Positions 18,707-61,000 of a stretch of DNA of 64,000 bases are shown here, one piece after another; position 1 is the first letter of the stretch; each line of letters opens with the position of its first letter. Position numbers and translations under genes: made by a program. The notes below the pieces were generated by a model. The model was not told where the DNA came from. It saw only the letters and a list, made by a program, of their open reading frames with translations, and searched no databases. Source of the DNA: Agrypnia vestita (taxonomy: Eukaryota; Arthropoda; Insecta; Trichoptera; Phryganeidae); assembly GCA_016648135.1 (NCBI GenBank), contig JADDOH010002133.1:105012-169011 (forward strand). Direction: 5' to 3'.

Positions 18707-18748
18707 TCACAACATGTTTCGGAAATCTCCATTTCCTTCTTCAGGTGA
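18707..18748 (-). ncRNA. Minimal hammerhead-like motif 1
   Basis: On the minus strand: stem I TCAC, core CTGAAGA, one extra A, stem II GGAAAT with loop GGAG and ATTTCC, then GAA, the palindrome ACATGT, T, and stem I partner GTGA. All four stem I pairs and all six stem II pairs form. AATAAA lies about ten bases downstream. The extra A between core and stem II departs from the textbook hammerhead. Confidence 0.55.
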
Positions 18749-19549
18749 GTGTAAACTAAAGTGTGTGGGAGTGAATATCGTGTGTATGGGTTGCGGATTC
18801 AGAACTGGAGTGGTTATCTTGTTGGCGAGAGAGAGGGAACACTTTGGAAAGGGTGAAGTTTTTTGTGATTTTCAAGTGTTTCTAAATTATTTTGTTGTAG
18901 ATGTGTATATTTGTATTGTTGAATGTGTGGTTGTTTTCTATGTCATGGTTAGCATAATCTGAAAACAAATTATTAGCGTGGCATATTCTATACTCTTTGA
19001 ATCTAGTTTCTATTGATCTGCCTGTTCGACCTGTACATATATACTACAGAGTAATTTGTTAGCGTTTTTCGACATATTATTTTCTAATTGTTTTTCAATT
19101 GAATTGTCCACGCACAAAGCTGGTTTTTGAAAAGCTAGACTAGTTATTCAATTTAAAGACACACTGTGGAACACTTTTACAAAGCATGTACCTACTATGC
19201 AATATACTCCGACCAGATGAACCTGTCCAAAGTTTCCAAATTTCCTCAGCGAGCCAGGACCACTTGTTACTTGATTTACGGCCCCATTCAGTTGCCCCGC
19301 ATTGTGCTGGTGGGGAGCAGACTAATGCTCCACGTCCCCCGGGCACAGTGTAGTAAAGTATAAGTTGTTAAGGGCTGGACTCCACTCGGCCGCAATTCTG
19401 TCAACCTTTTTGCGAGTTGGATTAACTCCGCCAGACAATTGTGTTGTTGGTCTCGGTAGCAGGGATCGATTCATAATAATTCTACATTCAAAATCATTCG
19501 GGTCTATTTTCATCGGTTCGCGGTATTCTAACAATTATGTCTTGACCTC
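18749..19549. other. No gene recognised
   Basis: Overlapping open frames on both strands at 19140-19571 have no recognisable domain and no splice support. Confidence 0.35.
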
Positions 19550-20311
19550 ATTTAAACTTCCTTTCTTTTAACTCGTGACGTCTGTTTGCTTGATTGACGA
19601 AAAAACTTTGGATCGATTTTTAACCCTTTTCCCGTGATCCAATCGAGCTGAAACTTTGCAAGCAGACTCGTGGTGACGATAAAAATGATCTTTCTGAAAT
19701 TTTCGTTAAAAAATTTAATAATTATAGTATAATTTTGGATTTTTAGAAATTTTAATGGTTTTTTAAAATTGGAAACCATACAAATGTTTGATTACTACCA
19801 ACAGCGGCCTGGCGACGTCACGGAATATTTAAAATTTGAATTACTCCGTCGGTATAATAGGTTAATCACTTCGAATTTCGAAAAATAGTCTGATTCTGAC
19901 TATTTAAAATCATTTTGACGCTAGAAATTCATAAGGTACGATATTGCTGATAATTGAATCTATCATAATCTTGATTAAATTGACTAACAAATGTTTTTAG
20001 AATTTAATCTGGCTTATGTTATATGTTTTATTCGTCTTTAATTGGTATTATGTTATATGATTGGATTATGTGATATGATTAGATTATGTTATATGTTTTA
20101 ATTCGTCTTTAGTTGTTAAGATTTTCATTCGCCAAAAGGAATGTAAGAGAATAAAACGAAAAGAAAATTCAAATGGAGATAAAGAGATATTTCTAGAGAT
20201 TTTTGACATAGATATTTGTCTAGACATGTCTCATTTTCAGTCAATCAATTATTTAATTACATGATGGTAAACTTATTTTAAAAAGAGAGGGAGTAAAATA
20301 AAAACTTGGTT
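19550..20311 (-). mobile_element. TIR element family H, copy 1 (inverted)
   Basis: Contains CCTTTCTTTTAACTCGTGAC, CGATTTTTAACCCTTTTCCC, GATTACTACCAACAGCGGCC and ends in GGGAGTAAAATAAAAACTTGG. The same blocks occur in the opposite direction at 26052-26925 and 57655-58110. The ends read CCAAGTTTTTATTATACTC and its complement. No coding sequence. Confidence 0.65.
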
Positions 20312-20354
20312 TATATGGGTTATTTTTTAATTTTTATTTTTATTTTATTAAAGA

Positions 20355-20450
20355 ATTAATGTTACTTTTACGGTCGTTGGACATATTAATGTGTTAAATA
20401 AAACGGATATGTTATACAAATCGTATATTTCACTGAGAAGAAAATCTCGA
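20355..20450. repeat. Diverged single arm of the 32.7-kb palindrome family
   Basis: TTACGGTCGTTGGACATAT, ATGTTATACAAATCGTATA and AATCTCGAAGTTT align with the left arm at 32680-32760. The part that would hold the hammerhead-like core is missing. Confidence 0.5.
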
Positions 20451-20536
20451 AGTTTATTATTATTTTTTTTTTTACAAAAAGTAGACCCGTTGACGGTCTG
20501 TTTGTATAGAAATAATGCAAGTGGACATGTAGATAA

Positions 20537-21263: not shown

Positions 21264-21271
21264 GTAGATAA

Positions 21272-22110: not shown

Positions 22111-22149
22111 TGTTGCGAAATCAGTTTATTGCGTTTCACGTAAACCATT

Positions 22150-22514
22150 ACAACAGATTGTCAGTTAACTTTGTAAAAACCACTACCAGATTTTAGGTCT
22201 ACCGGAGACGTACCCGTCTCTTCGTCGGGACCAACACTACACCACTACATTCACAATACATGGGGCAACACCCACTATAGACCCCGCCCCCTCTCACTCT
22301 CTTTCGGCAGATCCCCGATGGTTAATTTGGCTAATCGGTGCATGTTTCTTCCTGACAAGACTAACACGCATGTGATCAATTATCGGTGGAAGTGTAACAA
22401 TACTTTGGTTGAGGTGTGTAGTGTCGTGAATGTAGTGGTGTAGAGTTGGTCTCGAAACCGGTAGACCTAAAATCTGGTAGTGGTTTTTACAAAGTTAACT
22501 AACAATCTGTTATA
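22150..22514. mobile_element. Fold-back element with hammerhead-like motifs (family 2)
   Basis: Outer arms AACAGATTGTCAGTTAACTT and AGTTAACTAACAATCTGTT are inverted, and the inner sequence (ACACTACACCACTACATTCA against GAATGTAGTGGTGTAGAGTT) also pairs, so most of the 365 bp can fold back. Each arm holds a damaged hammerhead-like core (22196-22232 minus, 22448-22467 plus). A related half element lies at 60780-61000. Confidence 0.65.
22196..22232 (-). ncRNA. Damaged hammerhead-like motif 2
   Basis: Minus strand: stem I GGTC, core CCGACGA (expected CTGACGA), extra A, stem II GAGACG-GGTA-CGTCTC (six pairs), then the GAAAC block is deleted and CGGTA and stem I partner GACC follow. The copies at 22448 and 60907 keep TCTCGAAACCGGTAGACC, so the family form would have the palindrome ACCGGT and base A before GACC. 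Confidence 0.5.
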
Positions 22515-22722
22515 ATGTCTAACCACAAAGTTAATGCTTTAAATATTAATAATATTAAACCATTACACTTTGATATGTAACATGGTAATGTAGAACATAT
22601 GTGGGGTATGAAAGCAAAGGCAGCAATATCAAAAAGAAATTGAACGCAGTCATCGAGGATTACTTTTTTATAATGTACTGAATTCGAGATTTTATAGGAA
22701 ACATTATTTTGGAAAGGATGTA

Positions 22723-23153
22723 CAGGGTTATTTAGAAAATATTAATAACCTCGCAGGACCATATTCTTGCCTTGATTATGAGTCGAAAATGTTCAAGTTA
22801 TTATGACCTAATTAATATCAATAGTTATGGAGATATGCGACATCAAAGTTTGCATTTTTTTCAGTATTTTTGATTTATTTTTTGTAAAACGTTGGACCAT
22901 CATTACGATAACTTATATCGAATATTAAAAATATAATATTAAAGGGAATGAATTTTTCATATTCGATATAAGTTACTAGTAGTCCAACGTTTTACAAAAA
23001 ATAAGTCAGAAATATTGAAAAAAAATGCTAACTTTGATGTCGCATATCTCCATAACTATTGATGTAATGTCATGATAGCTTGAATATTTTCGACTCATAA
23101 TCAAGGCAGGAACATAGTCTTGCGAGGTTATTAATGTTTTCCAAATAACCCTG
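22723..23153. mobile_element. Fold-back MITE family F, copy 2
   Basis: Ends CAGGGTTATTTAGAAAA and TTTCCAAATAACCCTG are inverted. Both arms carry GTTATGGAGATATGCGACAT or its complement, and ATATCGAATAT lies near the centre. TA precedes the left end (22721-22722), as in mariner-type MITEs. Other copies are at 24118, 41496 and 52882. Confidence 0.7.
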
Positions 23154-23704
23154 CATAGGTACATAAAATCTGTAATTCAGTACATTCCAAATAGTAATGC
23201 TCGGTGACTGCGTTCAAAACATTTTTCTCATTTTTTGGATACTGCTGCCTTTACTTTTATACCCCACATATTATGCATAAATAAAATAATTTTAAAAGTA
23301 TTTAAATTCGGCGTTTCACATATAACATTGCAATATTTTACAAGATTAGCTAAATTCTGCTCTTCGATTACATCATTATGTTGCCACGTTGTTAAATAAT
23401 TCTAAAAAAAACTAAAATTCTAAATTTTACGTATATTATAACAGTATGTTGCAGATAACTAAATCATTATTAAGCTAGTTAAATTTTGCATATTAAAGAT
23501 ATTATTAAATTATTATATCACATTATTTTATAAATTGCTTTTTGAATCAATCAAATTTCTGATTTCACACACATTACAATTAATTAATAAATCATTTTGT
23601 AATTTGTTTAATTCTGCATTTCAAACACTTCATTAAAGTCAAGATATATTATACATAGATGCCTCATAGACGCGTAGCTATTTATACAGGAAAGTAAATA
23701 TGGA

Positions 23705-23830: not shown

Positions 23831-24117
23831 ATGTTCCAATTGTTTTTTGTCCTTGCGCCTTGGAGGCAAAGAAGAGGTTTTGTGTGGACGCCTACCCGTC
23901 CCGCTCGCATTCACATGAGTGTCAGCGGGGCGGTGAGTACGACCACTTTAGTATTTAAAAAATGCCGAACACGGGTGGTGAAAGTAGGGCTGATATGGGA
24001 GCTATTGTTGATAGAAAGACCCTGGGTGTGTGGTGGGTCCCTCTTCATTACATAATATAACGTTCATAATTTCACCCACGATTGACCATCACATCTATAG
24101 AATTTTTGAAAGATGTA
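23831..24117. other. No gene recognised
   Basis: A GC-richer patch (23860-24040) has a 74-codon open frame without a recognisable domain. No splice context ties it to the receptor. Confidence 0.3.
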
Positions 24118-24676
24118 TAGGTATTATTTGGAAACCATGAATAACCTCGCAAGAATATATTCCTGCCTTGATTATGAGTCGAAAATGTGCAATCAACCAT
24201 GACCTAATATCAATAGTTATGGAGATATGCGACATCAATGTTTGCATTTTTTTCCAAAATTTCAGACTTTTTATTTTACAAAAACTAGAGCTGTCATTCC
24301 AGTAACTTACATCGATTACGAAAAATTCATTCGTTTCAATACAAGTTAAGTAAAATGATAAATACCCTGCAGAAATTCCAATTGGAATGTTTTCCAATTG
24401 GAATTTGAAGGTTTTCATTATTTTATTTGACTTGTATTAAAGGGAAGAAATTTATCGTATTCAATATAAGTTACTGTAGGTAATAATAGACCAACGTTTT
24501 ACAAAAAATAAGTCAGAAATATTGAAAAAAAAAAAGAAAAATTTTTATGTCGCATATCTCCCTAACTAACGATATTAGGTCATGGTTGCTTGAACATTTT
24601 CGACTCATTATCAAAGCAGGTTGTAGCAAATCAGGTATAGTCCTGCGAGGTTATTAATGTTTTCCAAATAAACCTG
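24118..24676. mobile_element. Fold-back MITE family F, copy 3
   Basis: The left end reads TATTATTTGGAAACCATGAA and the right end ATGTTTTCCAAATAAACCTG. The GGAGATATGCGACATCAATG block and its complement lie in the two arms. It is longer than copy 2 because of insertions in the centre and right arm. Confidence 0.65.
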
Positions 24677-24889
24677 CATATGTTATCTTTATACACCTCG
24701 TGAACGTGAACGTGAATGGTGTGATCGCCATCTGTGGTTGAAATTTGTCTTCCCCCTTAACCAGTATAGATGTCGCCGTTGGTAATGAGATATCTATTTT
24801 TATTATGATACCTCTGCAGATAAAATCCCGTATTGTGTTCTTAAAAAATTTGAACATATTCAAAATATTCTGAATATCATTAGGTATAT

Positions 24890-26051: not shown

Positions 26052-26922
26052 CCAAGTTTTTATTATACTCACTTTCTTTGTAAAATATTACAACAATTAA
26101 AGACGAATTAAGACATATAACACAATATTAAACTTACAGGAATTCAATATATTTATAAAATTTCAGATGTTTTGAGCTTTGATAAGACACTTCATGCTTT
26201 GAAGATTAAATTCTTAAAACATTTGTCAGTCAATTTAATCAAAATTTTGATAGATTCAATTATCAGCAATATCGTAACTTATGAATTTCTAGCGTCAAAT
26301 GATTTAAAATAGTCAGAATCAGATTTGAGTAATGTAGAATTTTTCAAAACTAAGCAGATATATTATTATTATTCTTTTTTTTCCCACAAACCGAAGGGTG
26401 CTGTCATCTGTGAACCAATTGTCGTAAATTTTTGAAATTCGTAGTGCAGTACCTATTACACCGACGGAGTAATTCAAATTTTAAATATTCCGTGACGTCA
26501 TCAGTCCGCCGTTGGTAGTAATCAAACTTTTCTTGCAAACTGCGGTTCAAACGAAATATAATGGTGTTTTGATTTAAACCTGGTATGGATGTTGATATTT
26601 TTTAAGTGAGTATACCTATATTTTTAATTTTAATGATTTCACGTTTTTTAAAATTATATCGGTTATTTTATTCATTTCCTAGAAAATTTGTATGGTTTCC
26701 AATTTGAAAAAACCATTAAAATTCCGAAAAATTCAAAATTATACTAAAATTATTTTTAAAATTTAAACGAAATCTTTAGATCATTTTTATCGTCGCAACG
26801 AGTGTGCCTGCAAAGTTTCAGCTCGATTGGATCACGGGAAAAGGGTTAAAAATCGATCTAAAGTTTTTTCGATAGAAAAGCAGACGCTACGAGTTAAAAG
26901 AAAGGGAGTAATAAACTTAGTT
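26052..26922 (+). mobile_element. TIR element family H, copy 2
   Basis: It starts near AACCAAGTTTTTATTATAC and ends AAAGAAAGGGAGTAATAAAC. It shares with 19550-20311, in opposite direction, TAAAGACGAATTA, GACACTTCATGC, ATTCCGTGACGTCATC, CAGCTCGATTGGATCACGGG and the ends. Copies 1 and 2 lie on either side of the receptor exon at 21292 in inverted orientation. Confidence 0.65.
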
Positions 26923-26943
26923 TTCCCCACTTTTGTATTGAAA

Positions 26944-26985
26944 ATATCAACATGTTTCAGAGCCCATGGCCCCTTCGTAATACAG
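26944..26985 (-). ncRNA. Decayed hammerhead-like motif 5
   Basis: Minus strand: a decayed core ATTACGA, extra A, stem II GGGGCC-ATG-GGCTCT (all six pairs possible with two G-T), GAA, palindrome ACATGT, T. Stem I is not preserved. An AAGTGG box follows about 20 bases downstream as in families 2-4. Confidence 0.35.
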
Positions 26986-27352
26986 TTGTATACTAGTATA
27001 CAATTGTATCCTGACTTGGGTGTCTCTTTGGTCGATATGATTCACCACTTTCTCCTTATCTATTGACCAGATATCTTAAGCCAAGACATAAGCAAGCAAT
27101 AATGTTGAACAATGGCTTTGAACCGATAAAGTAACATCTTCCGCCTCTAAACAATTTGCCTAACCATTCGACCACCCATTGACCAGATTTGTGTCTGGTC
27201 AATGGCTGATTGTCCGCACGATGTTTTGTGCCAATCTCACAAGGTTACATCGCCGAGCGAGTGCGATGAAATCAATTATTCCACTTCTGGGGAATATTTT
27301 TGAAGTTATAGGTAGTTCTTTTGGCGCGTCATATTTTCACGTTGCATATTTT

Positions 27353-27726
27353 TGGCTAAAGCCAAGATAATGGTCCCATTGCCATATACAACGAAAATCC
27401 CATATACAACGAAAATGAGTATTTCACTATATTATTGAATGTGCTAATAACAAAAAGAAAGACAATTTAAGTTTAAATAGTAAGTATTAAATAAGATATT
27501 ACACTTTAAAGTTCCGAAAAATGCACTGCATATTTTGACATTTCATAGGCAATATATGAGGTTAGGTTAGGTTATTAGGTTTGGTTAGGTTAGGTTATTA
27601 GGTTTAGTTTGTTTAATTTAGATTACGATTATTTTAGTTAGATTAAATTAACAGGACGTTAAATTACACAGTGAATTACTTATTTTCATTGTATGAACAA
27701 CGGGACCATCATCTTGGATTATTCCA
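27353..27726. mobile_element. MITE with internal TTAGG-like repeats, copy 1
   Basis: Ends CCAAGATAATGGTCCCATTG and CAACGGGACCATCATCTTGG are inverted. The interior at 27558-27606 is AGGTTAGGTTAGG-type sequence resembling the insect telomere unit TTAGG. A second copy with the same ends is at 59692-60042. Confidence 0.65.
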
Positions 27727-28489
27727 TATTTTTTTGTCCAGTTTCATTTTAAGTCTGTCAGATTGTTTGGTCTCCGGCTGAGAATTGGTCTGAATTGCAA
27801 TTTATCATACAAAACACATTTGAATTGGAACATCCTTCATAGGAACTGAAATTTGTCGCAGATATTACCAATATGATTTACAAATGAATTAGAAATGATA
27901 GAGATGCTTCTCCTCTCAGCATTCATTATAAATATCACTAAAACCTTTCATTCAAATAACACCTTTATTCCTCGAGTCGTAGATACTTAGATGTCACCCT
28001 CGGACGAATTTACAATACCATAGATAAATACACACAAAAGTGTTGCCGTAACACAGGTAGTTTATTAAATAGTTTTGGAATTAGGTACTATTCGGTCCGG
28101 ACTCCGTACAAATTATTTGTTTTTTATTTATGCCAAAGAAGCATCACTTCTTATGCGCATACGTAAATACACGCACGTATTTTTTTATCTTTAAGATTTC
28201 CCAACGGCGAATACGTTACCTCTTTCCAGATGGCTCGAGGTAACAAAATTAGAATTGTGCAAAGCAAAATAAATGCATCACTGCACGGAGATGACCACAA
28301 GGTTATCTAAAACTCCCGTCAAGTTAAAATTATGTTTGACGTCAAACGCAGAAAAGTGCCTTTGGGGGTGACTTCTATAACCATTTCTAGCTCCCTTCGG
28401 TTGCCGCTATGTTATAGTTTGCAAGACTCGTCCCTTTATGACAAAGAAGTCTACGTATTATATGGACGTATCAGCTCACTTGGAAAACT
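27727..28489. other. No gene recognised
   Basis: Mixed-composition sequence with no recognised domain, exon or terminal repeat. Confidence 0.4.
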
Positions 28490-28548
28490 AATATAATTAT
28501 AATTTATATAAAATTACTTTATTAACACCACTTTTTTATTGAAAAACT

Positions 28549-28585
28549 TCAACTTAGTTCGAAGCCAATGGCTTCTTCGTCAGGA
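28549..28585 (-). ncRNA. Hammerhead-like motif 3
   Basis: Minus strand: core CTGACGA, extra A, stem II GAAGCC-ATT-GGCTTC (six pairs), then GAACTAAGTTGAAG. The other arm (29186-29206, plus) keeps GGCTTCGAAACGTGTTGAA, giving the stem III block ACGTGT (A-T, C-G, G-T) followed by T. Stem I supports only two pairs. Confidence 0.5.
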
Positions 28586-28924
28586 TAACAAAAATAAATA
28601 TAATAATAATAAATAAGTATAGATAATTAAAATATTAAAAAAGTTATATATGGAAAATGAATAATATAAAGTACCTACTTAACATGAAAATAAATTTAAA
28701 AGATAACTATTTGCAAAAAGGACCCGATTATTTATAACATTCTATTTACTATTAACACTCTTTCTTATTTACAAAATTTCTAATTTATTGAACTGTGATT
28801 CTGTATAATTTGTATGTAAAATTTTTAAACCCTTATTAATTGAATATTATAAATAATCAGGCCCTTTTTGCAAATAGTTATCTTTTAAATTTATTTTCAT
28901 GTTAAGTAGGTAATTTTTTTTTTT

Positions 28925-29103
28925 TTTTTAAAATAGAGATGCGAACACGGAATACGTGTCACATCAATATTCTTACTATTTTCAAACTAAGCTAAACGCT
29001 TGTGCTATGAAAATAGGACTAACTTGCTAGTCTGAAGTGAGGTTCGAACCCGCGACCTTTGGATCACGAGGCGAGTGTCCTAACCACAAGACCAACAAGC
29101 TAC
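28925..29103 (-). repeat. tRNA-derived SINE nested in the fold-back element
   Basis: Minus-strand copy of the SINE at 6483. The B box appears as GGTTCGAACC, the head as TTGTTGGTCTTGTGGTTAGG, and the 3' end runs into an A tract (T tract at 28915-28930). It is one of the better preserved copies. Confidence 0.75.
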
Positions 29104-29382
29104 TCCTTTATATTATTCATTTTCCATATAAATAACTTTTTAAATATTTTGATTATCTATACTTCGATTTTTAAATTTTATTTTTGGCTTCGAAACGTGT
29201 TGAATTTTTTAAATAAAAAAGTGGTGTTTACAAAGTTATTTTATATAAATTATAATTATTTCACCACAAAATAATTTTGCTATATTTGAAGAAGAAGTAA
29301 TATAATTATCACTAAGACGATAGTCCCTCGACGCTTTGCACTGAAAGGGCTATAGAATCGTTGTAATAGACATGTTCACTAA

Positions 29383-31985: not shown

Positions 31986-32751
31986 ATATTTGAAATTTCG
32001 TCGCTACTTTATGTTGTTGATTTATATATTCGTATATATGAGGCTTATCTATTCTAATTTAACAATCTAACAATAAAATTTATCACATTTTAGTCATAAG
32101 CATCCTGGAATATAATTCCACACTTTGGTCATCATATATAAAATTAATTCCTACAAAAATGCAATAATAAGTACAGCATTAGTTTCTCAGATTCATAAAT
32201 TATAAGTTACATATTCCAATTGACAATCTTGACTAAAATTATTTAATGCAATTAATTAATTTAACAGACTTTCGCAGCGCAAAAAAAAATAAAGGGCATT
32301 GTGGATTGCCCAGGTTTGGCGAACATGATTAATTATCGTATTCCCTACCGTTGTAGCTCGCTCCATTTCAATCTATTTCATGCAGGTGTTTGCCACTCTT
32401 ATTTTTATAAGAGTATTTATTCTAGAATAATTCAATGCTGTCGATTTATTTTGTACAAGTAGCATTGGTGCTTTTAAAAAACACGCGCACGCAAGTGTTG
32501 AAAAAGTTATCTGTATCCTTTTAATATTGTTATTAATTTTATTTGTTTGATTTATAATTTTTTCTCACAAATTTTGTATTGTATATTAATGATTTTCTTT
32601 ATTATATTACTTAATTTTTACGTAACCTTTATTTTCTTTACATATTTAAGTTATTAAAGAGTTAAGGTTGTTATTACGGTCGTTAGACGTATTTAACTGT
32701 AAATAGTTGCGAATATTTTATACGAACCGTATGTTTTTCCGAGAAACGATT

Positions 32752-32792
32752 CTCGACGTTTCGTTGAATGCTTATTCAACGTCATAAGGAGG
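32752..32792 (-). ncRNA. Hammerhead-like motif 6, left arm
   Basis: Minus strand: stem I CTC, core CTTATGA (one change from CTGATGA), extra C, stem II GTTGAAT-AAGC-ATTCAAC (seven pairs, tetraloop), GAA, palindrome ACGT, C, stem I partner GAG. Confidence 0.5.
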
Positions 32793-32926
32793 ACGACCTT
32801 TACCCGCGGAGGTAGAGGGCGGACTGGTTACTGCTTTCGGCAACAACTCCACAACAAAGTGCATATAATTTGCGGCCTCGAAAGCAGTAATCAGTCCGCC
32901 CTCTACCTCCGCGGGTAAAGGTCGTC

Positions 32927-32973
32927 CTCCTGATGACGTTGAATAAGCATTCAATATTCAACGAAACGTCGAG
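32927..32973 (+). ncRNA. Hammerhead-like motif 6, right arm
   Basis: Plus strand: stem I CTC, perfect core CTGATGA, extra C, stem II GTTGAAT...ATTCAAC with an enlarged loop caused by a small duplication, GAA, palindrome ACGT, C, partner GAG. Confidence 0.55.
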
Positions 32974-33148
32974 AATCGTTTCTTGTAAAAACATACGGAT
33001 CGTATAAAATATCCGCAACTATTTACAGTTAAATATATTTAAGTTACACTGCTTATTGCACTAATCTTGTTGTTCCATGTCTAAGGGCGTATGTGTACAA
33101 AGTAATGTTGGTGGTAACTTTCCTAACAATTGTTTTGTGTTATTTTAG

Positions 33149-33870: not shown

Positions 33871-34480
33871 TAATGAAATGTGTCAATAAATGACGTAATA
33901 ATTTTTCGATAATCCGGATTTGTCCCCACCCGGACTACCGCCATCCCCAATTAGTCCGGTTAAATCGAGGTTCTACTGTATTTTAAAAGAATTGCTATTT
34001 GACGTAGTGATCCTGAAATTTTTTTGTTATAGTTATGAGTGCATGCCGTTCGTCGTTTATGTCTGTATAATAATATGATATTACGATTTTGACATAAACA
34101 ATTATTATAGGATACCCGGATTGCAGGATCGTAAACCTGGGGCCAGGACATTTGATAGTCTTAATTAAAAGTTATCCTCTATCACGTCCCATATTATCCC
34201 GGTGCTATGCGCGCCGGCTGTATCGCCGTAAAGTTTTTATTGGAACAACGATAAACGAGTGGCGAAATTACTTTTCCTGGTCGCCTAAGGGGAGGCCATG
34301 AATGTATAATGCTTTCATATTTTAAGAACTGAAAATTTTAGTCGCATTTATTTTCTCTGTTTCTCTTTTCTCGAAAGATGGTGGATCTCAAAAGTTAAGA
34401 TTGTTACAATTTTTGTGCAGAAATCGAATATTTCTGTACTATTGTATTTTGCTATTACTTATAAATATAATTAAACGAAT
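33871..34480. other. No gene recognised
   Basis: No domain or bounded element identified. A GC-rich patch at 34190-34300 is unexplained. Confidence 0.35.
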
Positions 34481-34508
34481 TTACATAGTTTACTACCACT
34501 TAATTTTT

Positions 34509-34553
34509 GGTAAAAACCAACGGTTTCGGAAACAATGTTGCTTCGTCAGGGTA
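34509..34553 (-). ncRNA. Hammerhead-like motif 4 (decayed)
   Basis: Minus strand: core CTGACGA, extra A, stem II GCAAC-ATT-GTTTCC (partly paired, consistent with an ancestral GGAAAC/GTTTCC), GAA, then ACC-GTT-GGT, which can form a real small stem III. Stem I is not preserved. TTAAGTGGTAGT lies about 20 bases downstream, as in families 2 and 3. Confidence 0.4.
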
Positions 34554-34864
34554 TACTTAATACTAATTAAATTTTACAAAATTATAAACAATCATACCTC
34601 GGTGTCAAGTGTCTAAATGGGGGTAAATAATTGGGGGTGCGAAAGAAACAGGAGATAGGGTGAAAGGGAACATATTTTAAAAAATCTAACAATTATCTAA
34701 ATCTAATCTAAGAATTAATTGGTGATTAACTAAGTAAATTCGTGTAATTATACGAATATTTCTATTAATTCTATTAAACACAATTTTACTTATATAGTAA
34801 ATAAGTCTCATAAGCACGAAACTATTTATATGACAAACGTATATGTAAATATTTTTATTCGATG

Positions 34865-35849: not shown

Positions 35850-36560
35850 CGAGATTTGGCGAAAACTGGAAATCATCTGCAAGATTTAAGCATGCTATTT
35901 AATGCAGTTGCATGTATGCAGAGATGTTTAGAACAAGTGAACGAGTTTGTATATTTGGGAAGTACGTTTAGTAGAGACGGCAAGGCTGAGAATGATATCG
36001 AAAGGAGAGTGACTGCGGGAAACAAAGTAAATGGTGCTCTAAATGCAATCATGGCCATTAAGAGTCTGTCTAAGGAAGCAAGACTAGTGGTATAGAAGTG
36101 AAGCCTGGAATTGGCAAAAGAGGAATGAAAGTAGACTGAATGCAGTAGAAATGCGGTCACTAAGATGCTTGTGTGGAAAATCTTTGGTCGATAGAGTAAG
36201 GAATGAACAAATTAGACGTGAATGCAATGCTGACTGTAGTGTGGTGGGAAAGACGTGCTGAGATGGTTTGGTCATGTGGAACGTATCAACGAGGAAAGGA
36301 CGGTTAATAAAATTTATAAGGCGAGTGTTGAAGGCAACAGGAATAGAGGGCATCCGCGAAAGACCTGGCATGATCAGATACAACAAGTGTTTGAGGATGG
36401 CCCCGTTCAAAGCCGCAACAACCGTAGAACTTGTATGAAAAGATGTATGAATGTGGCCGAAGCAAAAGTGATGTGCCAGGATAGAAGAGTGTGGCGTTAA
36501 ATCATCTCTGCCTATCCCTGCGGAGAAACGGCGTGATGGTTAGTTAGTTAGTTATCACGC
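35850..36560 (+). pseudogene. LINE ORF2 C-terminus with TTAG tail
   Basis: Fragments in order: EQVNEFVYLGSTFSRDGK, then RVTAGNKVNGALNAIM, NAVEMRSLRCLCGKSL, LRWFGHVERINEERTV, GHPRKTWHDQIQQVF, and RCMNVAEAKVMCQDR. These are the post-palm and C-terminal motifs of a widespread insect LINE group. Frameshifts lie near 36090 and 36250. The insertion ends in repeated TTAG (36538-36552), its target-primed tail. The same family recurs at 61860-62175. Confidence 0.75.
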
Positions 36561-36579
36561 GTCATCGGCAAAGAGGGAC

Positions 36580-36740
36580 ACACCAATTTCTCCAACATGT
36601 TTCATCCTCGTTAAACTTATCAGACGACGGTGCCTCCTAAAACAACATGTCGTAATCCTCTGACGGCATAAAAGTAATTAACCATTCTACAACATGTAAA
36701 ATACACGGCATTCAAACATGTCAAAAAGTACCTTGACATT
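36580..36740. repeat. Spaced AACATGT motifs
   Basis: AACATGT occurs at about 36594, 36643, 36691 and 36714, with spacing near 48 for the first three, each close to TCCTC or CTGACG/CAGACG text. The reverse strand reads ...CTGATAAG...GAGGATGAAACATGTT, which resembles the hammerhead-like layout but lacks a stem II partner. Confidence 0.3.
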
Positions 36741-39419: not shown

Positions 39420-39705
39420 ATTGAAGAGAACAGATATCCGTAAATCGTTTGGTTTGGGTCTTCTGAGGTATTGATTATGCCGTGTTATTCCGACGTTTTT
39501 GGCCGACGTTTCGGATCCCATTGCAGGGTCCATCATGTGTTCACATCAGCCCTCACGATGGACCCTGTAATGGGATCCGAAACGTCGGAATAATGCCCCA
39601 GAAGACCCAAACTAGAAGATTTCTGAGATCGTGAAAACCTCTGAACATTCTTATCCGTAAATCGGTAAAACAGCACTAATGACCTATTCTGGTTTGTGGC
39701 ACTTC
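39420..39705. mobile_element. Fold-back repeat with hammerhead-like motif 7
   Basis: Two inverted copies of GACGTTTCGGATCCCATTGC...GGGTCCATC meet at 39537-39556. Outer text ATATCCGTAAATCG and TTATCCGTAAATCGG is in direct orientation. Solo copies of the same repeat lie at 51095-51270 and 53440-53660. Confidence 0.65.
39549..39590 (+). ncRNA. Hammerhead-like motif 7, copy a
   Basis: Core CTCACGA, one extra T, stem II GGACCC-TGTAAT-GGGATCC (six pairs with a bulged A), GAA, palindrome ACGT, C, then GG pairing with the two C upstream of the core. The inverted partner on the minus strand (39501-39540) keeps stem II and GAAACGTC but has a broken core. Confidence 0.45.
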
Positions 39706-41406: not shown

Positions 41407-41495
41407 GTTCAAGTATATAAATATAGAATCGAACCTTTGTTCTTAAATTAATTCAATATGAATCTCTAAGTTACTTTTACATATTTTTTTATATA

Positions 41496-41970
41496 CAGTG
41501 TTATTTGGAAAACACTAATAAGCTCGCAGGACTATATTCCTGCCTTCATTACGAGTCGAAAATATTCAAGCTATTATGACCTAATATTAATAGTTATGGA
41601 GATATGCGACATCAAAGTTTGCATTTTTTTTCAATATTTCAGACTTATTTTATGTAAAACGTTAGACTATCACTACAGTAACTTATATCGAATATGAAAA
41701 ATTCATTCCCTTTGATACAACTCAAATAAAATAAAAAAACCATCAAATTCCAATTGGAAAATTTTCAGGGTTTTTATCATTTTATTTACCGTAATGATAG
41801 TCCAATCTTTTACAAAAAATAAAGTTCAGAAATATTGGAAAAAAATGCAAACTTTGATGTCGCATATCTCCATAAATATTGATATTAGGTCATGATATCT
41901 TGAACATTTTCGACTCATAAAGTCAGGAATATAGTCCTGCGAGGTTATTAATGTTTTCCAAATAATTCTG
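41496..41970. mobile_element. Fold-back MITE family F, copy 4
   Basis: Ends CAGTGTTATTTGGAAAAC and GTTTTCCAAATAATTCTG are inverted and flanked by TA (41494-41495, 41971-41972). Arms carry GGAGATATGCGACATCAAAG and its complement; ATTCCAATTGGAA lies at the centre. The TA duplication supports a Tc1/mariner-type MITE. Confidence 0.8.
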
Positions 41971-42279
41971 TATATTGTTCCCTTGCGATATTCATCGGAA
42001 GTCTCAGATACCTGTACCGCGACACGAAGGGAGCACGATAGTTAAAGGCAGGCCTCACTCGCACAGCATTTTTGCGCATTTTATTTTCGTGATAGAGATC
42101 TTAACTGATGTGTAATCAGGGTGAAATTTAATCAACATCACCCAAACCTTTACAGATTTATATTTAAAACCTTAGGTCAGGGTCGCAAATCTACGTGTTG
42201 TAGCGAAGGGAAAAACTACATTTCAAAATGAAGACTACAACACACACACGTTCATCAGTTTGAAGACTACAAAGTGTAC

Positions 42280-43049: not shown

Positions 43050-44459
43050 TGTTTTTTTTATTTTTGCTGGGTAGGTTAATCAACGCAAAAATATTCATCA
43101 CGCAAGGGGTCTACAAGGTGAACACAAAGCAAGTTGTGTAATTCGTCTAAATCCGCTGATCCCTGTAGTGATGTGAATTTAAATTTTTTCAGTCATGAGA
43201 AAAAAATCTGTTTAAAAATAAAACACTTCAGTCTGAATAAATTAGAATTATTTAATGTTGTACACGCAAGTATTCTCAACAACTGATAATCAATATAGAT
43301 CGAATTTTTATATAAGTTAATTTTTAACCAAGTACCTACTGTTTTCTGCTAAGGGTTACATGATTATTTAGTCGTACGCTAATATTTAAAAATTTATTTG
43401 AAATAATGCAAATGATTTTTTTAAATATGCGTTTTAAGTATTTTTATTTATATTTAAGTTTTGAGCAGTTTACAAAATCCCTTACGTATAAACTCGCGCG
43501 ATGACATTTTTCTTCCCACACATTTGAACACACACACGAACATATAAAAACGCATACACACAGGGACACATAAAAACACACAAATACACACAAATACACA
43601 TAGTCACACAAACTCACTATTTAAAATATTGTTTTTTCTTATTTTTTTATCGATCCTGGTATAATATTCTTGTATATATGTTTTCTTGTAATTGGCCCAA
43701 GGCTCTCTATACCAATAATTGTTTTTTTTTCAAGATTTATTAATTATATGGCTGTAAGAAAACCATTAATTGAAAAAAAAGTCCTTTTTAAACAAAAGTT
43801 TCCGTATTACAGAGGGTAGATAGTTCCACATTTTGTCATGTCACAGTGGTCGCGCCAGCATCCATATATATATATATATTTTTTTTATAATATATATATA
43901 TCGAACGCCTGTGCATGAGAGGGATAGGCAAACTGTCCACCTGATATATACTCTCCGATGCGCCGACCGAACAGAACCGAATTCAGTTCAAAAATGACCA
44001 CACCGTATAAAAACATCTATCATTGAACGATCTCCGCCCGCTAATGTGATACCGCACTTTATTTTGATCTTTACGAGCCGCTATCTCATGTAATCATTCG
44101 TGAGAGTGAATTTCTTTATGGTGGAGAGGGCATCCGCATCATCCGCGTACAGTCCATCCCAGGAGTACCGAGTTTTCTGGGAAATCGGAGGATCCAGTCT
44201 GTTTGCATTGTCTCTTTGTATATGGGCGTTTCGCACCTTATATTGGCTCGCTTTGGAAGTCTACCAGTTGGAAGTAAACCATTCTAGCGTACTATTCTTA
44301 TAACTGCTGCCGATTCACATATAGTTTTCTGGCAATGGCTTATTGGCTCTACAACCCTTCCTGCAACCAAAGTGGAGGATGACCTCAGTGTTTAGTGTCA
44401 TTTAAGTTGTCTGCGATGCAGACAATTGCATGAAAAAGATGTTCTGCAGTCATGATCTC
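43050..44459. other. No gene recognised; simple repeats
   Basis: ACACA-rich stretch at 43520-43615 and (TA)n runs at 43866-43903. A 67-codon open frame at 44100-44303 has no recognisable domain. Confidence 0.45.
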
Positions 44460-46822: not shown

Positions 46823-48579
46823 ACGACACTAGGAGCAGAATAATAGAATATTTCTTATTCAAAATTCCCAGTATGGAGTGCAATATCGACGGGTTTGATG
46901 ACACACATACGTACGTTTAAATGAAAATTGTGAGATGAAATTGTTCGAAATTTTCTTATGACACCTAACGACCACCCCCACATACCCACCGGACTCCAAT
47001 CTCCACCCCACTCCTCCTTTAGCCTTAAGTTTAGTATTAGCAACATTACTAAAGATGATTCGATAAAGAGCATCGAAAACATTCTGGTAAACAATTAGTG
47101 AAAGTAAACAAAGTCTTTTTAAATATATTTTTAAGGTGAAATTGTATTGTTTTATCCAGTTAACGTTCACAGTGCGGCGGTCGTGAGTTACAAAACTCCA
47201 TAATGGGCATAAGCCCGTGGAGACAGCAACAAAGCGAGGACAACTCAAGCAGGGTTGGGGGAGGATAAAAATCCCTGGGGGTAGTTAAGACGTAGATGGG
47301 AGCGTTTCTTATTCTGCTTAAATTAAAGTTAGAATCACCCTTGTAAGTGCTCTTACAAGGCACAACAATGTGAAAGGTCGTTTAATTAATTAAGCTTGAG
47401 TTTTTTATGGACGCCGTTATTTTTATTTAGGGTATTTTACTTGTTTTCAACTGACATTGAAGGTGACCCACCACATACCCTGGGCTGTTTTATGCGCCGA
47501 AGCGTCCATATCAGCCCAACACATTCGCCGCCTGGTTGGCATTATTTTATGCTAAAGCGTCCTCTCCGCCCGGCCTTGCGTCCCAGCATAACAAGAAGCA
47601 AGACCAGGCGAGTCGGTCGCGCAAAACCTTCAATGTCCCATGCTAAAAGTCTTTATTTTTTAAAAGAGGTTTTACAAAATTACAATAAAAGAACATCTAT
47701 AATCTAAAAAATACAACATAAGAACACCCGAGGAGACATCGCACGGGACAAAAATAAATCAACACCCCTCCTTGGAGGGAAAGGGACAAAACAAAAATAA
47801 AAACATGTAGCACTTGTGCCAGAAAAGGTAAAACCACCGGTATGACACCGATCAGGAGAGACAACGTAAAATTGACAAAATATGATACAAAACAGAAAGA
47901 TAACATGGTTGTGCAAATAAAATGGAAAATAGCGATAGAAAACACAATGAAATTAACAAGAATGTAAAGAGAAAATAGAAGTAATAAACAGAAAAAGTGA
48001 AATTGCAAGATTATTAAAAGAAAACAAAGAAAGACCAATGTAGGGCAGCATGGTCAAGGGTACATCAGGACCACTGACAACTGACAGGAAGCAACCGTAT
48101 TAGCCGGTAGAATAAATTCTTATGAGCTTTTATACTCCAGACAATATTGAGACACGAATTTTGCAACTGTGACCTTTGCAGTTGTGCAGGTAACATTTTT
48201 GCTGTCCACTGCTACCAACCGGGTCTTAGAAATTTGCATCATATGCATCGATATGCACAACACTTCACACAAACGTAAAATGTTTAGAAGTCAATATATT
48301 GACCATTTGATGTTGTGTTTATTTGGGGGAATTCGAACCTACCTACTAGCAGTAACAACAGAATACATGATTGTAATTTATGTTGTAATAATGCTTTCTG
48401 GATATCTAACTCTTCAAAATACTATAACGAAATGGTAAAAAAGATTACTTACAGAATCCCTCGTAATGTGTCAATGAAGACAATAACATCGAAACCTCTA
48501 GGACCTTCCACTACATTCTGGAACACACCATCGCACTCTGGAATAAGCTTCGTCATTCGCGGAGCACCTGGAAAAGCCA
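46823..48579. other. No gene recognised
   Basis: Overlapping frames on both strands (46855-47250, 47396-47707, 47697-48038) carry no recognisable domain. GC-richer patches at 46960-47030 and 47470-47640 are unexplained. Confidence 0.35.
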
Positions 48580-51094: not shown

Positions 51095-51270
51095 TTAGAA
51101 GATTCCGAGTGTCCGTGAAAACCTAAGAGCATTCTTATCAGCCTTGATGATGGACCCTGCAATGGGATCCGAAACGTCGGCCAGAAAGGTCGTAATAACA
51201 CGGCATAATACCCCAGAAGGCACAATCCAGAAGATTACAAGTGCCCGTGAAAACCTAAGAGCATTCTTAG
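51095..51270 (+). repeat. Repeat carrying hammerhead-like motif 7, copy b
   Basis: It contains GTCCGTGAAAACCTAAGAGC twice, at 51111-51130 and near 51244-51263 (GTGCCCGTGAAAACC...), on either side of the motif and of AACACGGCATAATACCCC. It matches parts of 39420-39700. Confidence 0.6.
51141..51181 (+). ncRNA. Hammerhead-like motif 7, copy b
   Basis: Stem I GCC, core TTGATGA (one change), extra T, stem II GGACCC-TGCAAT-GGGATCC with one bulged A, GAA, palindrome ACGT, C, stem I partner GGC. All three stem I pairs and six stem II pairs form. Confidence 0.5.
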
Positions 51271-51655: not shown

Positions 51656-51994
51656 GATCGATCGCCTCTAGTATTTAATTCAATGAATATGTATAATCTT
51701 GTGAAGCTTCTTACATAGATGTAAGAGGCAGCATCTAGCATTGTAAAGGTAAGTTACGCCACTGGTGTATCTTATTCCAGTGCAATACACCTCTGGGGAC
51801 GAAAAGTTCCCAAACACAAAACTGAGTCTATTTCCAAACAGCGGCGTAACTATGCTAATGTAGACAATTTGGTGCATTGGGCCCACGTTTAACACGTACC
51901 CTACAATACGTTGGCAGTATAGCTACTTTTTCTATGTAAAAATTAAAAAAACACAATGTTTTTTATGAGAGTTCAATATTTTATTAGTCTCTTA

Positions 51995-52033
51995 CAGGAC
52001 GATCGTTTCGGCTGTTTAGGCCATTATCAACTG
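51995..52033 (-). ncRNA. Hammerhead-like motif 8, left arm
   Basis: Minus strand: stem I CAG, core TTGATAA (two changes), extra T, stem II GGC...GCC, GAA, eight-base palindrome ACGATCGT, C, stem I partner CTG. Confidence 0.4.
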
Positions 52034-52346
52034 ATAAACATAGCTATTATTCTTGAGTTTATATACAAATATTTTGGAAAAACCTTAATAATAATACAGA
52101 GGATACAGTTAAGTCACCTGAACTTGTTGTATTGACCTGGTATTCCCGTAATCAGCAATTTTGAGACTACCTTTACTACCTGAAATCCATCCTTATAATG
52201 TTTAATTGCCCATATCTTAATAATTTAAAAAGGTAAACACCCAACTATTTTATGTATTTGTAAAGCTATTAACTGTATCCTCTGTATTATTATTAAGGTT
52301 TTCCAAAATATTTGTATATAAACTCAAGAATAATAGCTATGTTTAT

Positions 52347-52385
52347 CAGTTGATAATGGCCTAAACAGCCGAAACGATCGTCCTG
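52347..52385 (+). ncRNA. Hammerhead-like motif 8, right arm
   Basis: Same sequence as the left arm on the plus strand: CAG, TTGATAA, T, GGC-CTAAACA-GCC, GAA, ACGATCGT, C, CTG. AATAAAAT lies about 13 bases downstream. Confidence 0.4.
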
Positions 52386-52881
52386 TAAGAGACTAATAAA
52401 ATTTATCAGATAATAAATATGTTCTGATAAAAAACATTGTGTTCTTTTAATTTTTATATTTAAAATAATGGAGTTCTTTGCAATAAATAACGTCAGTGTT
52501 CAAAAAATTAAAACATCAACATTTTATCTTTCACGGATTTACGATTCAGAAAATTCGCTCAAAAAACTCCAGAGAAAGTGTTGGAGATTTAATACGCTAA
52601 CACTCTATTTTTCTATTTGCGGACAGCCGTGTTGTGGTTTTTGAGCGGCGCGTGGAATGCGTGTTAAAAAGCAATAAATAGTTTCTAAAGTCTTCCGAAA
52701 TAATTTTGTATAATCCCGCGACGAATAAAAATATACGGAAAAAATTCGTTAACCTTCCCCATGCCACGCTGTTACACGCAAGTTTGTCGAGCTAATTGAG
52801 CCTGGAATATTTTTCCCTAAATACGTGTAAAACAAATTTCGTATTTTAGGTAATCCTAAATTAACATTTTTGCTTATAGTA

Positions 52882-53408
52882 CAGGGTGTACCAGAGCTAG
52901 CAGCAGAAACTTGGCAGGTAGATTCCTCCTGACTATGTTATGAGTCTAAAATGTTCAAGCAACCATGACCTAATATCAATAGTTATGGAGATATGCAATT
53001 TCAAAATTAGATTTTTTTTCATTATTTCTTACTTATTTTTTGGAAAAAGTTGAACTATCATTACAGTAATTTATGTCGATTATGAAAAATTCATTCGCTT
53101 TAATACAAGTAGAATAAAATGATAAAAATCTTGCAAAAATTGAAAAAAGTTTTTTTACAAGGTTTTTATCATTTTATTTCAGTTGTATTGAAGCAAATAA
53201 ATTTTTCACAATCGATATAAGTTACTGTAATGATAGTTAAACTTTTTGCAAAAAATTAGTCAGAAATATTGAAAAAAATGCATACTTTGATATTGCATAT
53301 CTCCATAACTATTGATATTAATGGTCATGGTTGCTTGAACATTTTAGACTCATAACGTAGTCAGGAATCTACCGACCAAATTTCTGCTGCTAGCTCTGGT
53401 ACACCCTG
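52882..53408. mobile_element. Mariner-type fold-back MITE, best-bounded family F relative
   Basis: Ends CAGGGTGTACCAGAGCTAGC and its complement are a near-perfect inverted repeat of about 28 bases, flanked by TA (52880-52881, 53409-53410). The arms contain GTTATGGAGATATGCAATTT-type family F text; the ends differ from other copies. It sits about 470 bases before the receptor exon at 53878. Confidence 0.85.
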
Positions 53409-53439
53409 TATAGACGTTATATGATATATAACATGAGTT

Positions 53440-53660
53440 GCCATCGCGGCTCTTTTGGTTAGAGTTTTCTGGGATATTTTGCCGCGAATGTGAGACCTCT
53501 CTTACCAATGTTTAGGATCCCATCCCGACTCTGATGAAGGACCCCGCATTGGAATCGAAAACGTCGACTAGAAAAGTCTCACTCACGTATCACACAGCAG
53601 TATATACCATAATATTTTAAACAAGATTCTGAACGGCCAAGAACATTTCGACATCGTATC
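53440..53660 (+). repeat. Repeat carrying hammerhead-like motif 7, copy c
   Basis: Core CTGATGA at 53531-53537 is perfect and is followed by A, a mutated stem II (GGACCC...GGAATC) and GAAAACGTCGAC. Flanks share CAGTATATACCATAATA-like text with the other copies only weakly. TTTTCTGGGATATTTTGCCG resembles text near 15525. Confidence 0.45.
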
Positions 53661-58110: not shown

Positions 58111-59691
58111 AAGTATTTTGAAAAAATCTATAGGTTTAAATGATTTATGAAATTATGTTTAAGTGAATTTCAGTTAAGTAAAAAAGCTAAATTGTATTTG
58201 TATTTACTAATTAATAAATATATAAGTATTAGCTTTTTTTAAATTTTGATGTTGATGTAGTTGCTCAGTTGATATCTTTAATTGTGAGATGTCAAATGTT
58301 ACACATCGTATGCGACTACTGTAAGGCTCGCTAGTTTTTTATTTAATAACGCTTACTTGACGTAAAACGTCTAGTCTGTGTGACCAATGGTCTATTAGTC
58401 TATTTGGAAACTTGAGCAGGTGTTTGAGAAAGGGTAATATAACAGCGATGGCCATCATTACTCACTTTTATCGCTCTCGTCCGTTTCAAAAGATTATTTA
58501 CGGCACTCGCTGAGCGACGGAACGTTTGAAAACTTTTAGCTTCAGCTTGTTTTCCGCCTTCTAATGAATTATTTTACGATTCTTTTCAAGAACCAGTGGA
58601 ATTACGAGATTTATTGACATTTTTATCGATTAGTTTTAACATTATAGTTACAGATTTAGATATAATTAAAAAAAAAAACTCTTTTATATATCGCTCTCTA
58701 ATTTGTTCAACTCATCTTTTCAACTTTTCTTTCAATTCAGCGACTTCATATATGTAATTTTTTATCTTGCATCTTTCTTTAATTAACATTTTTTCTTTTG
58801 CCCAGACCTTGTATATATATGCAGATGTATTGATCAGATAGATATCTTTATGCTATACATATTTCTTTTGCACTTCTTTTTATTTTTATCTCTTGTCCTT
58901 TTTACTAAGTAGATTTGTCCTTTCCTATCCATTAATTATTCCCCTTTTACCTCTAATTCTTTGACTCTCATAGTTTGTCCATAACTGAAAACTTTCACTT
59001 CTTTTGTTTTTTATTATATAACTCAAGTTATTGTTGCTTTATGTTAATACACATGTTAATTCTGTGGAAACTTGTAAGATGTTGTTCAATAATCATGTAT
59101 AATCTATTTATATGTACTGTTAGTTTCCCAAAAATAAATAAATAAATAAAAACATGAGATTAGGAAGAAAATGGTGCCTTTGATATATGCAGTCCTTTGG
59201 TGGTTTTTCTTTGTGTGGCTGGGGGAGGCTAATAAAACAATGGAAATTAGTTGATTTTAATTACTGCGCACGAATTTAATCGGAGGACCGTTCTTTAATG
59301 TACACCAATATCATAATTCGCACTAATTATCACTAGAATATTCGCTGCACTCTAGAAAACTCCGCACGAAAGTACCCACTCTACCGCTTGTCTCTGGTAA
59401 AACGCCTTTCTATGGTCACTTGTCGCATCGTTCACTTCTCACTTGTCAAAATAACTCTGACACCCCGTGTGCTCGTCACCGTTTTTATACCGCGTTGGTA
59501 TCGCTTATATAAATGTACACAAAGTCTGCCCTAAGATCGGTGTTCACCAGTTTTAGGCAGATATACAGGCTATAAGGAATATTTTTTTAAATAAAATTAA
59601 TATATTTGCTATATACGAATATGCGGTTTATTTCTAACATCTTGAAACAAATTGAAGTAGCAGAACACATGTTGATTTGGAGTCCACATAG
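58111..59691. other. No gene recognised; one retroposon-like tail
   Basis: T-rich sequence. AAATAAATAAATAAATAAA at 59132-59150 looks like a LINE or SINE tail. The segment 59260-59420 (TTTAATCGGAGGACCG, CTCTACCGCTTGTCTCTGG) recurs at 62185-62345. Confidence 0.4.
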
Positions 59692-60042
59692 GGGCTAAAT
59701 CCAAGATAATGGTCCCATTGCATATACAACGAAAATGATTATTTCACTATATTATTGAATGTGCTAATAACAAAATGACAGATAATTTACGTTTAAAAAG
59801 TAAGTATTAAATAAGATTTAAAGTTTCGAAAAATGCACTGCATATTTTGACATTTCATAGGCAATAAATGAGGTTAGGTTAGGTTATTAGGTTTGGTTTG
59901 GTTAGGTTAGGTTATTAGTTTGGTTTGTTTAATTTAGATTACGATTATTTTAGTTAGATTAAATTAACAAGACATTAAATTATATCGTGAAATACTTATT
60001 TTCATTGTATGAACAACGGGACCATATTCTTGGATTATTCCC
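59692..60042. mobile_element. MITE with internal TTAGG-like repeats, copy 2
   Basis: Ends CCAAGATAATGGTCCCATTG and CAACGGGACCATATTCTTGG match copy 1 at 27353, as does the AGGTTAGGTTAGG interior (59870-59925). Confidence 0.65.
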
Positions 60043-60514
60043 ACACAGGTTTCACACGAAAATTCACAGTATCTTGGATATTTAGTATATATACATATAT
60101 TTACGCTTCGTTTAGGCTTCCCACGCGTTCCTGGCTCCCAAAGTCTATAACTTACTGCCAAATAACGTTTAAAATCTCGATTTCTAAAGTGGAAAGGTTG
60201 CTCAACAGATGAATAATAAATTTCTGAAGAAAAGAAATCGAAAAAAGGGTGATGAATGCAATCGCATGAACTTAAACGGACATAAGTTTTAATTTCTTTT
60301 AAATAATCATTAATCTTCTTCTTTTTCATTCACTTCTTCATTTACTTCTTCTTCTCTTCATTTTTTTTTTATCTTTTGTTATTTCATTTGATATTTCTAT
60401 GTTGACACGCTCACGTGTCTGGTGGACACTCATTGACAACGGATTATCCTGTCTCCTTTACCACAGGCCTTGGTCTAGCTAAGGAGACAGGGAACATCAT
60501 TTTTATTTATGTTA

Positions 60515-60735
60515 TTTGTTTATTTCTATTTAATTTAAATATAAAATTTTGGTTGAACTGTGCCTGTCTCACTAATAATATCTGTGTTGAGACAGGCATA
60601 GTTTACAATAGTGTGCAGATACAAAACATAGTATGTAGATGTATAGTAAAATAATTATTTGTATTTGATAAAGTATTGTATTGTATATTAAAGTAACATA
60701 ATAAAGTGATTAAAGTAGCATAATAATAAATATAT
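60515..60735. repeat. Dispersed repeat I, copy 2
   Basis: TATCTGTGTTGAGACAGGCA, TAGTTTACAATAGTGTG and AAAGTAACATAATAAAG match 24900-25080. Confidence 0.5.
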
Positions 60736-60779
60736 AAAGCATTTTATTTATTTAAAGCCCCCTCTCACTCTCTCCCGTT

Positions 60780-61000
60780 AGATTCCTGATTGTTCTGTAG
60801 GCTAGTAAGTGCATGCTTGTCCCTGACGCATGTGATAAATATTGGTGAATGTTCAACAATATTATGGTTGTGGAGTATAGTGTTGTGAACATAGTAGAGT
60901 AGTGTTGGTCCTGATACGTCTCGAAACCGGTAGACCTTAAATCTGGTAGTGGTTTTTACTGAGTTAACTAACATTATGTTATTACGGTTTCTTATAAAAT
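60780..61000 (+). mobile_element. Half copy of the family 2 fold-back element
   Basis: It matches the right half of 22150-22514: CCCCCTCTCACTCTCT, CGCATGTGATAAAT, AGTGTTGGTCCTGATACG, AATCTGGTAGTGG and GAGTTAACTAAC. The hammerhead-like motif at 60907-60936 keeps stem I GGTC/GACC, GAAAC and palindrome ACCGGT but has lost CGA plus the left half of stem II. Confidence 0.6.

Follow-up and report, generated by a model that had tools for sequence, protein, structure and literature searches.

Minimal type I hammerhead motifs in head-to-head repeat pairs of an Agrypnia vestita contig, probable remnants of Penelope-like elements

Hammerhead motifs and paired arms in the window

The window, i.e. the whole stretch of DNA analysed here, comprises 64,000 nucleotides of the trichopteran Agrypnia vestita (assembly GCA_016648135.1, contig JADDOH010002133.1, positions 105,012 to 169,011 of the forward strand) and carries, on either strand, short elements bearing hammerhead-ribozyme motifs (Table 1). 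The original prediction had placed a minimal hammerhead layout at 15 places; all 15 are present as described, but the layout is fully matched at only 2 of them, and most of the others are damaged.

The motif was scored with a descriptor consisting of a stem I of at least 3 bp, CTGANGA, one extra base, a stem II of at least 4 bp, GAAA, an A..T block with 2 pairs, H and the stem I partner, and the counts were compared with those of 40 Markov-generated sequences and with offset controls having 0, 2 or 3 extra bases in the same descriptor. With a perfect core and one extra base, 2 matches are found in the window (E18 and E32R) against a mean of 0.03. When at most one core change is allowed, E32L and E51 are added, giving 4 matches against a mean of 0.05 and a maximum of 1. 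With 0, 2 or 3 extra bases, no match is found in the window at either setting. A previous version of the scan found 2 matches against 0.08, with a maximum of 1 in 100. As these counts exceed both the random and the offset controls, the layout and its one-base offset exceed chance, though near-consensus copies are only four. Looser settings weaken the hammerhead excess: with stem II relaxed to at least 3 bp, 5 matches are found vs 0.15, including one at 47045 absent from the original prediction, and with two core changes the window gives 1, 8, 0 and 4 matches at 0, 1, 2 and 3 extra bases (means 1.48, 0.95, 0.93 and 1.18), the Markov-generated maximum at one extra base being 5 and 4 of the 8 window matches lying outside the predicted places. 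The hammerhead motif in the window is real, and the element order of minimal type I hammerheads is complete, with one extra base, in 2 copies, or in 4 at no more than one core change.

The stems also vary in the predicted manner. Among 8 copies of 6 families, picked for fitting the layout, pairs I.1, I.2, II.2 and II.3 occur as 2, 3, 3 and 4 pair types without any mismatch, pair I.3 is mismatched in 2/8 copies, and pair II.1, being G-C in all 8, is uninformative. Stems I and II thus differ between families with pairing mostly kept. Because the copies were picked for layout fit, this table is not by itself independent proof, and it is the random-sequence and offset controls, i.e. the offset-specific excess, that carry weight in support of the layout.

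Selection on the fold, which had been argued from this covariation, or activity of the window copies, is unsupported: most copies are damaged, and the arms of one element often have different lesions. Of the 11 places outside the four near-consensus copies, nine are damaged, partly on reading by eye, and the remaining pair, 51995/52347, is a variant. The arms of E22, E28 and E32 differ at the ribozyme, those of E52 do not. The E52 transcript is predicted to fold as one long hairpin in which the ribozyme is paired to its own antisense copy (-257.6 kcal/mol, z -26.8). The window copies are probably inactive, as would be expected because most cores are damaged and because the transcript of a paired copy also contains an antisense twin with which the ribozyme can pair.

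In a self-comparison of the window, E22, E28, E32, E39 and E52 each prove to have two inverted arms, both of which carry the motif or a remnant of it, pointing outward. Flanking direct repeats, 11-13 bp long, are present at E22, E28, E32, E34 and E39 (shuffle fractions 0 to 0.015, 200 base shuffles each), and both arms carry a motif or remnant in 4 of these 5 pairs, E34 having one. Ten inverted pairs, E32 and E39 not among them, were also scanned separately, and direct repeats of at least 9 bp were found at E22, E28 and E34, not at E52, and at 0/6 motif-free inverted pairs. The direct-repeat test covered E18, E22, E26, E28, E32, E34, E39, E52 and E60, and the E52 repeat is doubtful. In 5/5 direct-repeat pairs, one arm outreaches the other by 30-46 bp, measured from the repeat, so that the tail is one-sided.

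Table 1. Elements, hammerhead motifs, direct repeats and tail-frame readings in the window (LTR, long terminal repeat; positions are those of the window)
Feature	Position	Strand	Description
E18 hammerhead	18707..18748	minus	core CTGAAGA (full consensus), extra base A, stem I TCAC/GTGA, stem II 6 bp, block ACATGT
E32 outer-segment relative, truncated	20323..20455	minus	open frame start MSNDRKSNINSLIK kept (tail-frame reading); no hammerhead
E22	22141..22567		head-to-head inverted putative pseudo-LTR pair; arms 22146-22254 / 22426-22517, 80.7% identity
E22 direct repeat	22141-22152 / 22556-22567		12 bp, TAAACCATTACA; reached in 0/200 shuffles
E22 tail	right arm		+45 from repeat; left arm +0
E22L hammerhead	22196..22232	minus	GAAAC segment gone; stem I GGTC/GACC, stem II GAGAC/GTCTC, extra base A
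E22R hammerhead remnant	22448..22467	plus	core and 5' half of stem II deleted
E22R tail-frame reading			MSNHKVNALNINNIKPL, last residues inside direct repeat
E26	26914..26986	minus	decayed hammerhead (at 26944; core or stem II defects) and downstream segment, kin to both E28 arms (76.9-77.4% over 52-53 nt)
E28	28489..29309		head-to-head pair; tail on right arm; other repeats in interior
E28 direct repeat	28489-28500 / 29298-29309		12 bp, TAATATAATTAT; shuffle fraction 0
E28L hammerhead	28549..28588	minus	core CTGACGA, extra base A, A15.1 lost, stem I down to 2 bp
E28R hammerhead remnant	29186..29203	plus	core and 5' half of stem II deleted
E32	32642..33046		head-to-head pair; tail on left arm
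E32 direct repeat	32642-32653 / 33035-33046		12 bp, ATATTTAAGTTA; shuffle fraction 0.005
E32L hammerhead	32752..32791	minus	core CTTATGA (G5 changed), stem II 7 bp perfect
E32R hammerhead	32927..32973	plus	full consensus core CTGATGA, extra base C; predicted cleavage 5' of GAG
E32L tail-frame reading			TSNDRNNNLNSLIT
E34	34425..34763		head-to-head pair; tail on left arm, read from 43-nt arms
E34 direct repeat	34425-34435 / 34753-34763		11 bp, CGAATATTTCT; shuffle fraction 0.015
E34 hammerhead	34509-34552	minus	left arm only; stem II damaged
E34L tail-frame reading			ISNSKIQ, then stop
E39	39435..39664		head-to-head pair; tail on right arm; hammerheads in both arms with G5 changed
E39 direct repeat	39435-39447 / 39652-39664		13 bp, TATCCGTAAATCG; 0/200 shuffles
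E39 hammerhead	39549		G5 changed, stem I 2 bp
E51	51097..51269	plus	partial tandem, E39 family; direct duplication 51097-51137 / 51229-51269, 93%, spacing 132 nt
E51 hammerhead	51141-51181	plus	core TTGATGA, extra base T
E52	51928..52465		head-to-head inverted pair; arms 100% identical over 104 nt
E52 hammerheads	51995; 52347	minus; plus	variant core TTGATAA (U3-A8), extra base T, stem II 3 bp
E52 direct repeat, doubtful	51938 / 52503		AT-rich 11-mer, overlapping arm
E53	53531..53578	plus	decayed E51-family hammerhead (80.9% over 47 nt), apparently without proper stem I
E60	60757..60990	plus	single-arm E22-family copy; 74% to 22286-22513
E60 hammerhead remnant	60907-60936		part of core and part of stem II gone

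Traces of coding sequence are found at the tails, where frames were chosen by eye: (M/T/I)SN occurs in four copies, and the E28R and E52R frames are likewise open at the tail. The E51 frame opens inside the ribozyme, at ATGs 51147 and 51150, and runs MMDPAMGSETSARKVVITRHNTPEGTIQKITSARENLRAFLDLF; in ATG 51150, the A is A9, the T is the extra base and the G opens stem II. E39L is also open from ATGs inside its ribozyme; E39L and E53 resemble the E51 frame at first, and E39R stops early. Projected on E51, E39L ends at 51236 (+87 from ATG 51150) and E39R at 51269 (+120). In a Pfam search of all 13 open reading frames (ORFs) of at least 120 amino acids and one of 111 amino acids (14 of the 401 ORFs of at least 50 amino acids), the single match was a sub-threshold one to WDR72. 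A protein search started from an exon-like ORF gave no match.

Several other features were observed. Reverse-transcriptase-like short open frames with FADD and YADD lie at 36555-36677 and 44081-44260 on the minus strand. A fragment of the E51-family downstream segment, without hammerhead, is found at 15506-15575, and a separate inverted-repeat element family without hammerhead at 22718-23157, 24114-24680, 41491-41975 and 52880-53410. A possible truncation of the 20323-20455 copy at the cleavage site was dropped, the match running about 8 nt beyond the site. AGGTT-rich short tandem repeats at 27555-27609 and 59871-59941 adjoin a duplicated 124-bp segment, and a tRNA-like sequence at 7435-7511 (minus) scores 29.0 bits against a cut-off of 29 and is unlisted at gathering score.

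The extra base after the core

The canonical form, with stem II directly on A9 and no inserted base, is not seen: one inserted base is present in 8/8 scored copies, as the original prediction had noted in calling it a deviation. This base is not new. Insertions of one or two nucleotides beside CUGAnGA occur according to the available part of a 2023 paper (PMC10085705), and, as one-base insertions are stated there for known alignments, the inserted base does not exclude hammerhead membership.

It is also found in viral contigs. Three scans of IMG/VR with equally specific patterns were pooled, all figures being those among the matches listed: full three-stem hammerheads were found at 72/133 sites without an extra base, at 64/164 sites (57 distinct) with one and at 2/120 sites with two. 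With the first pattern, full one-extra-base hammerheads occur at 0/118 prokaryote genome matches vs 5/9 viral matches. The viral swap control gave 41/520 and 36/430, figures probably inflated by related viral ribozymes. Like the window copies, the 64 viral hammerheads with the extra base have one base between A9 and stem II; unlike them, they have a normal stem III. After CTGATGA, 56 of the 64 have T and the other 8 have G, while A and C do not occur, and the G cases may be register shifts; as the extra base is A, C or T in the window, the two sets differ in its identity. Vertebrate Penelope hammerheads also carry an extra base. The viral comparison suggests allowing one base between CUGANGA and stem II in hammerhead searches.

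Extra-base three-stem hammerheads are frequent in IMG/VR viral contigs, including L002, L003, L005, L006 and L007. L005 contains two hammerheads about 390 nt apart (minus-strand offsets about 1205 and 1593), one with and one without the extra base.

Searched with Rfam, the window gave no hammerhead, either at gathering score or with the limit relaxed to E<=10. The three-stem hammerheads placed in viral loci, nine of them lacking and eight carrying the extra base, were likewise overlooked by Rfam at gathering score in 17/17 cases, the sole Rfam hammerhead among these loci being another one, of type II, elsewhere in L203. Because viral hammerheads are overlooked too, the null result in the window says little.

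Origin of the paired elements

The best explanation of these elements is, very probably, that minimal type I hammerheads are carried in the pseudo-LTRs (pLTRs) of several families of Penelope-like elements (PLEs), of which the window holds short remnants devoid of the element's coding region, presumably reverse transcribed from both ends of a break. As no Penelope gene was found in the window, PLE membership rests on structure, and the elements are to be regarded as putative PLEs. A Penelope-like origin had been guessed from the motif, and the head-to-head pairs, direct repeats, one-sided tails and frame starts support it on structural grounds. The pLTR arrangement, inverted or tandem, and head to head if inverted, is found in E22, E28, E32, E34, E39 and E52, and as a partial tandem in E51; candidate target-site duplications (TSDs) of 11-13 bp are present at five elements; and the optional 30-40 bp tail on one PLE arm has its counterpart, of 30-46 bp, in 5/5 direct-repeat pairs.

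The same arms could recall foldback or miniature inverted-repeat transposable element (MITE)-type DNA transposons, with palindromic arms that are merely hammerhead-like, since E22, E32 and E52 have inverted arms with a short spacer and those of E52 are identical over 104 nt. Such an origin is nevertheless improbable: instead of symmetric terminal inverted repeats and a TSD of fixed length, one-sided tails are found in 5/5 pairs and the repeat length varies from 11 to 13 bp, while the unequal arm content, the single-arm copy E60, the frame start at the tail and the offset specificity of the hammerhead excess also argue against it. Still less probable are non-LTR retrozymes, in which small repeats bearing type I hammerheads stand in tandem and move as circular RNA. 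Short, hammerhead-bearing elements in which no coding sequence was found, and the partial direct duplication of E51 with its 132-nt spacing, would suit them, but retrozymes are direct tandem repeats (PMC7229834, from the part available), of 150-450 bp with hammerheads, whereas the window copies are inverted pairs with a one-sided tail and frame starts, E51 alone being partly duplicated.

Several observations weigh against the Penelope-like interpretation or weaken it. Pfam gave no match above cut-off among the 14 ORFs searched, one narrow GIY-YIG pattern is absent from all six frames of the window, and the FADD (36572, minus) and YADD (44149, minus) motifs stand in ORFs of 40 and 59 amino acids. 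When 8 motifs were folded alone, both stems formed only in E18, E32L and E51 (z -0.02 to -2.97), the stretches folded for E52R and E34 cutting off stem I. No direct repeat was found for E18, E26 or E60; E18 has no paired arm that could be found, and the search at E60 found neither an inverted mate nor a direct repeat of at least 8 bp. The whole-arm alignment of E34 is weak (score 1), its tail being taken from the arms of the self-comparison, and the match between E32 and its 20323-20455 relative overruns the edge of the E32 repeat by about 24 nt of AT-rich sequence. The direct repeats are also longer than the 8-10 bp of rotifer elements given in the available part of PMC3846280. Finally, the ribozyme of PAc (Poseidon, Anolis carolinensis) cleaves only with protein present, and ribozyme mutants were still inserted in vitro (PMC11167929, in the part available).

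As to how PLE pairs would arise, we infer dimer cleavage, two-ended priming and the identity of the enzyme along the following lines. In a living element with tandem pLTRs, two hammerheads on one transcript could join via the self-complementary stem III, the transcript being cut 5' of the stem I partner. As to the remnants, reverse transcription of the element RNA would have started at both ends of a staggered break, yielding two copies head to head, with 3' ends outward, within an 11-13 bp TSD. Two reverse-transcription start sites could be used once each, in which case one arm would have a tail, and two-ended priming would explain the head-to-head order, the unequal arms and the single tail. 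We tentatively propose that each pair is one integration in which both DNA ends were primed and the two start sites used once each, the hammerhead deletions being skips of the reverse transcriptase over the folded ribozyme; later mutation could alternatively have caused the unequal arms. The pairs could also be Penelope remnants made by self-priming on one template, a possible though doubtful route that differs in mechanism only. Self-priming has been proposed from palindromes at inverted junctions (PMC3846280, available in part), and a short palindrome seen by eye at the E39 junction, together with the identity of the E52 arms, would fit it. On the other hand, deletions or insertions at the ribozyme distinguish the two arms of E22, E28 and E32, and in each of the five pairs the arms are unlike in tail. 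Both differences would follow from two separate reverse transcriptions, though the former could also be due to later mutation. Inverted pLTR pairs are readable as integration records, and the one-tail rule (5/5, a small number) offers a simple genome-wide test of how PLEs, still little understood, prime reverse transcription.

Comparison with known systems

The sources compared here were available in part, and the likenesses are limited to those portions. Solo inverted hammerhead pairs were not described in the titles and abstract openings of the literature searched, most subscription literature being beyond reach. PLEs are reported to carry minimal type I hammerheads (PMC7761336; PMC6155905), which can act as dimers only if the stem III loop is palindromic and the copies stand in tandem (PMC6466107). 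With those described by Lunse, Weinberg and Breaker (2017), the window copies share the type I order, the very short self-complementary stem III and the pLTR location, but they are mostly damaged, and inverted instead of tandem. The E52 core has the pair exchange reported for natural hammerheads in which U3-A8 replaces C3-G8 (PMC3088659), with an extra base and a 3-bp stem II in addition.

The architecture is close to that of Penelope elements of Adineta vaga, which have inverted, most often head-to-head pLTRs including the first codons, an optional 31-bp tail on one inverted pLTR and TSDs of 8-10 bp, some copies having none (PMC3846280). Head-to-head inverted pLTRs, TSD, one optional tail of about 31 bp and first codons inside the pLTR are common to both; unlike in the rotifer, no ORF was found between the window arms.

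In PAc, both DNA strands are cut and extended, the start of reverse transcription lies in a stem-loop, rich in AC, at 111-118 bp of the ORF, the 30-40 bp tail lies between two internal reverse-transcription start sites, and the ORF opens at hammerhead stem II (PMC11167929). The frames of the E22, E32, E34, E28 and E52 copies, unlike that of PAc, open downstream, near the tail. The E51/E39 family resembles PAc in having its start codon in the hammerhead and its second element end at +120, compared with the PAc starts at 111-118 bp. The kind is already known, and the window copies are additional, mostly dead members of it, several hammerhead-bearing Penelope-like families being added from one locus.

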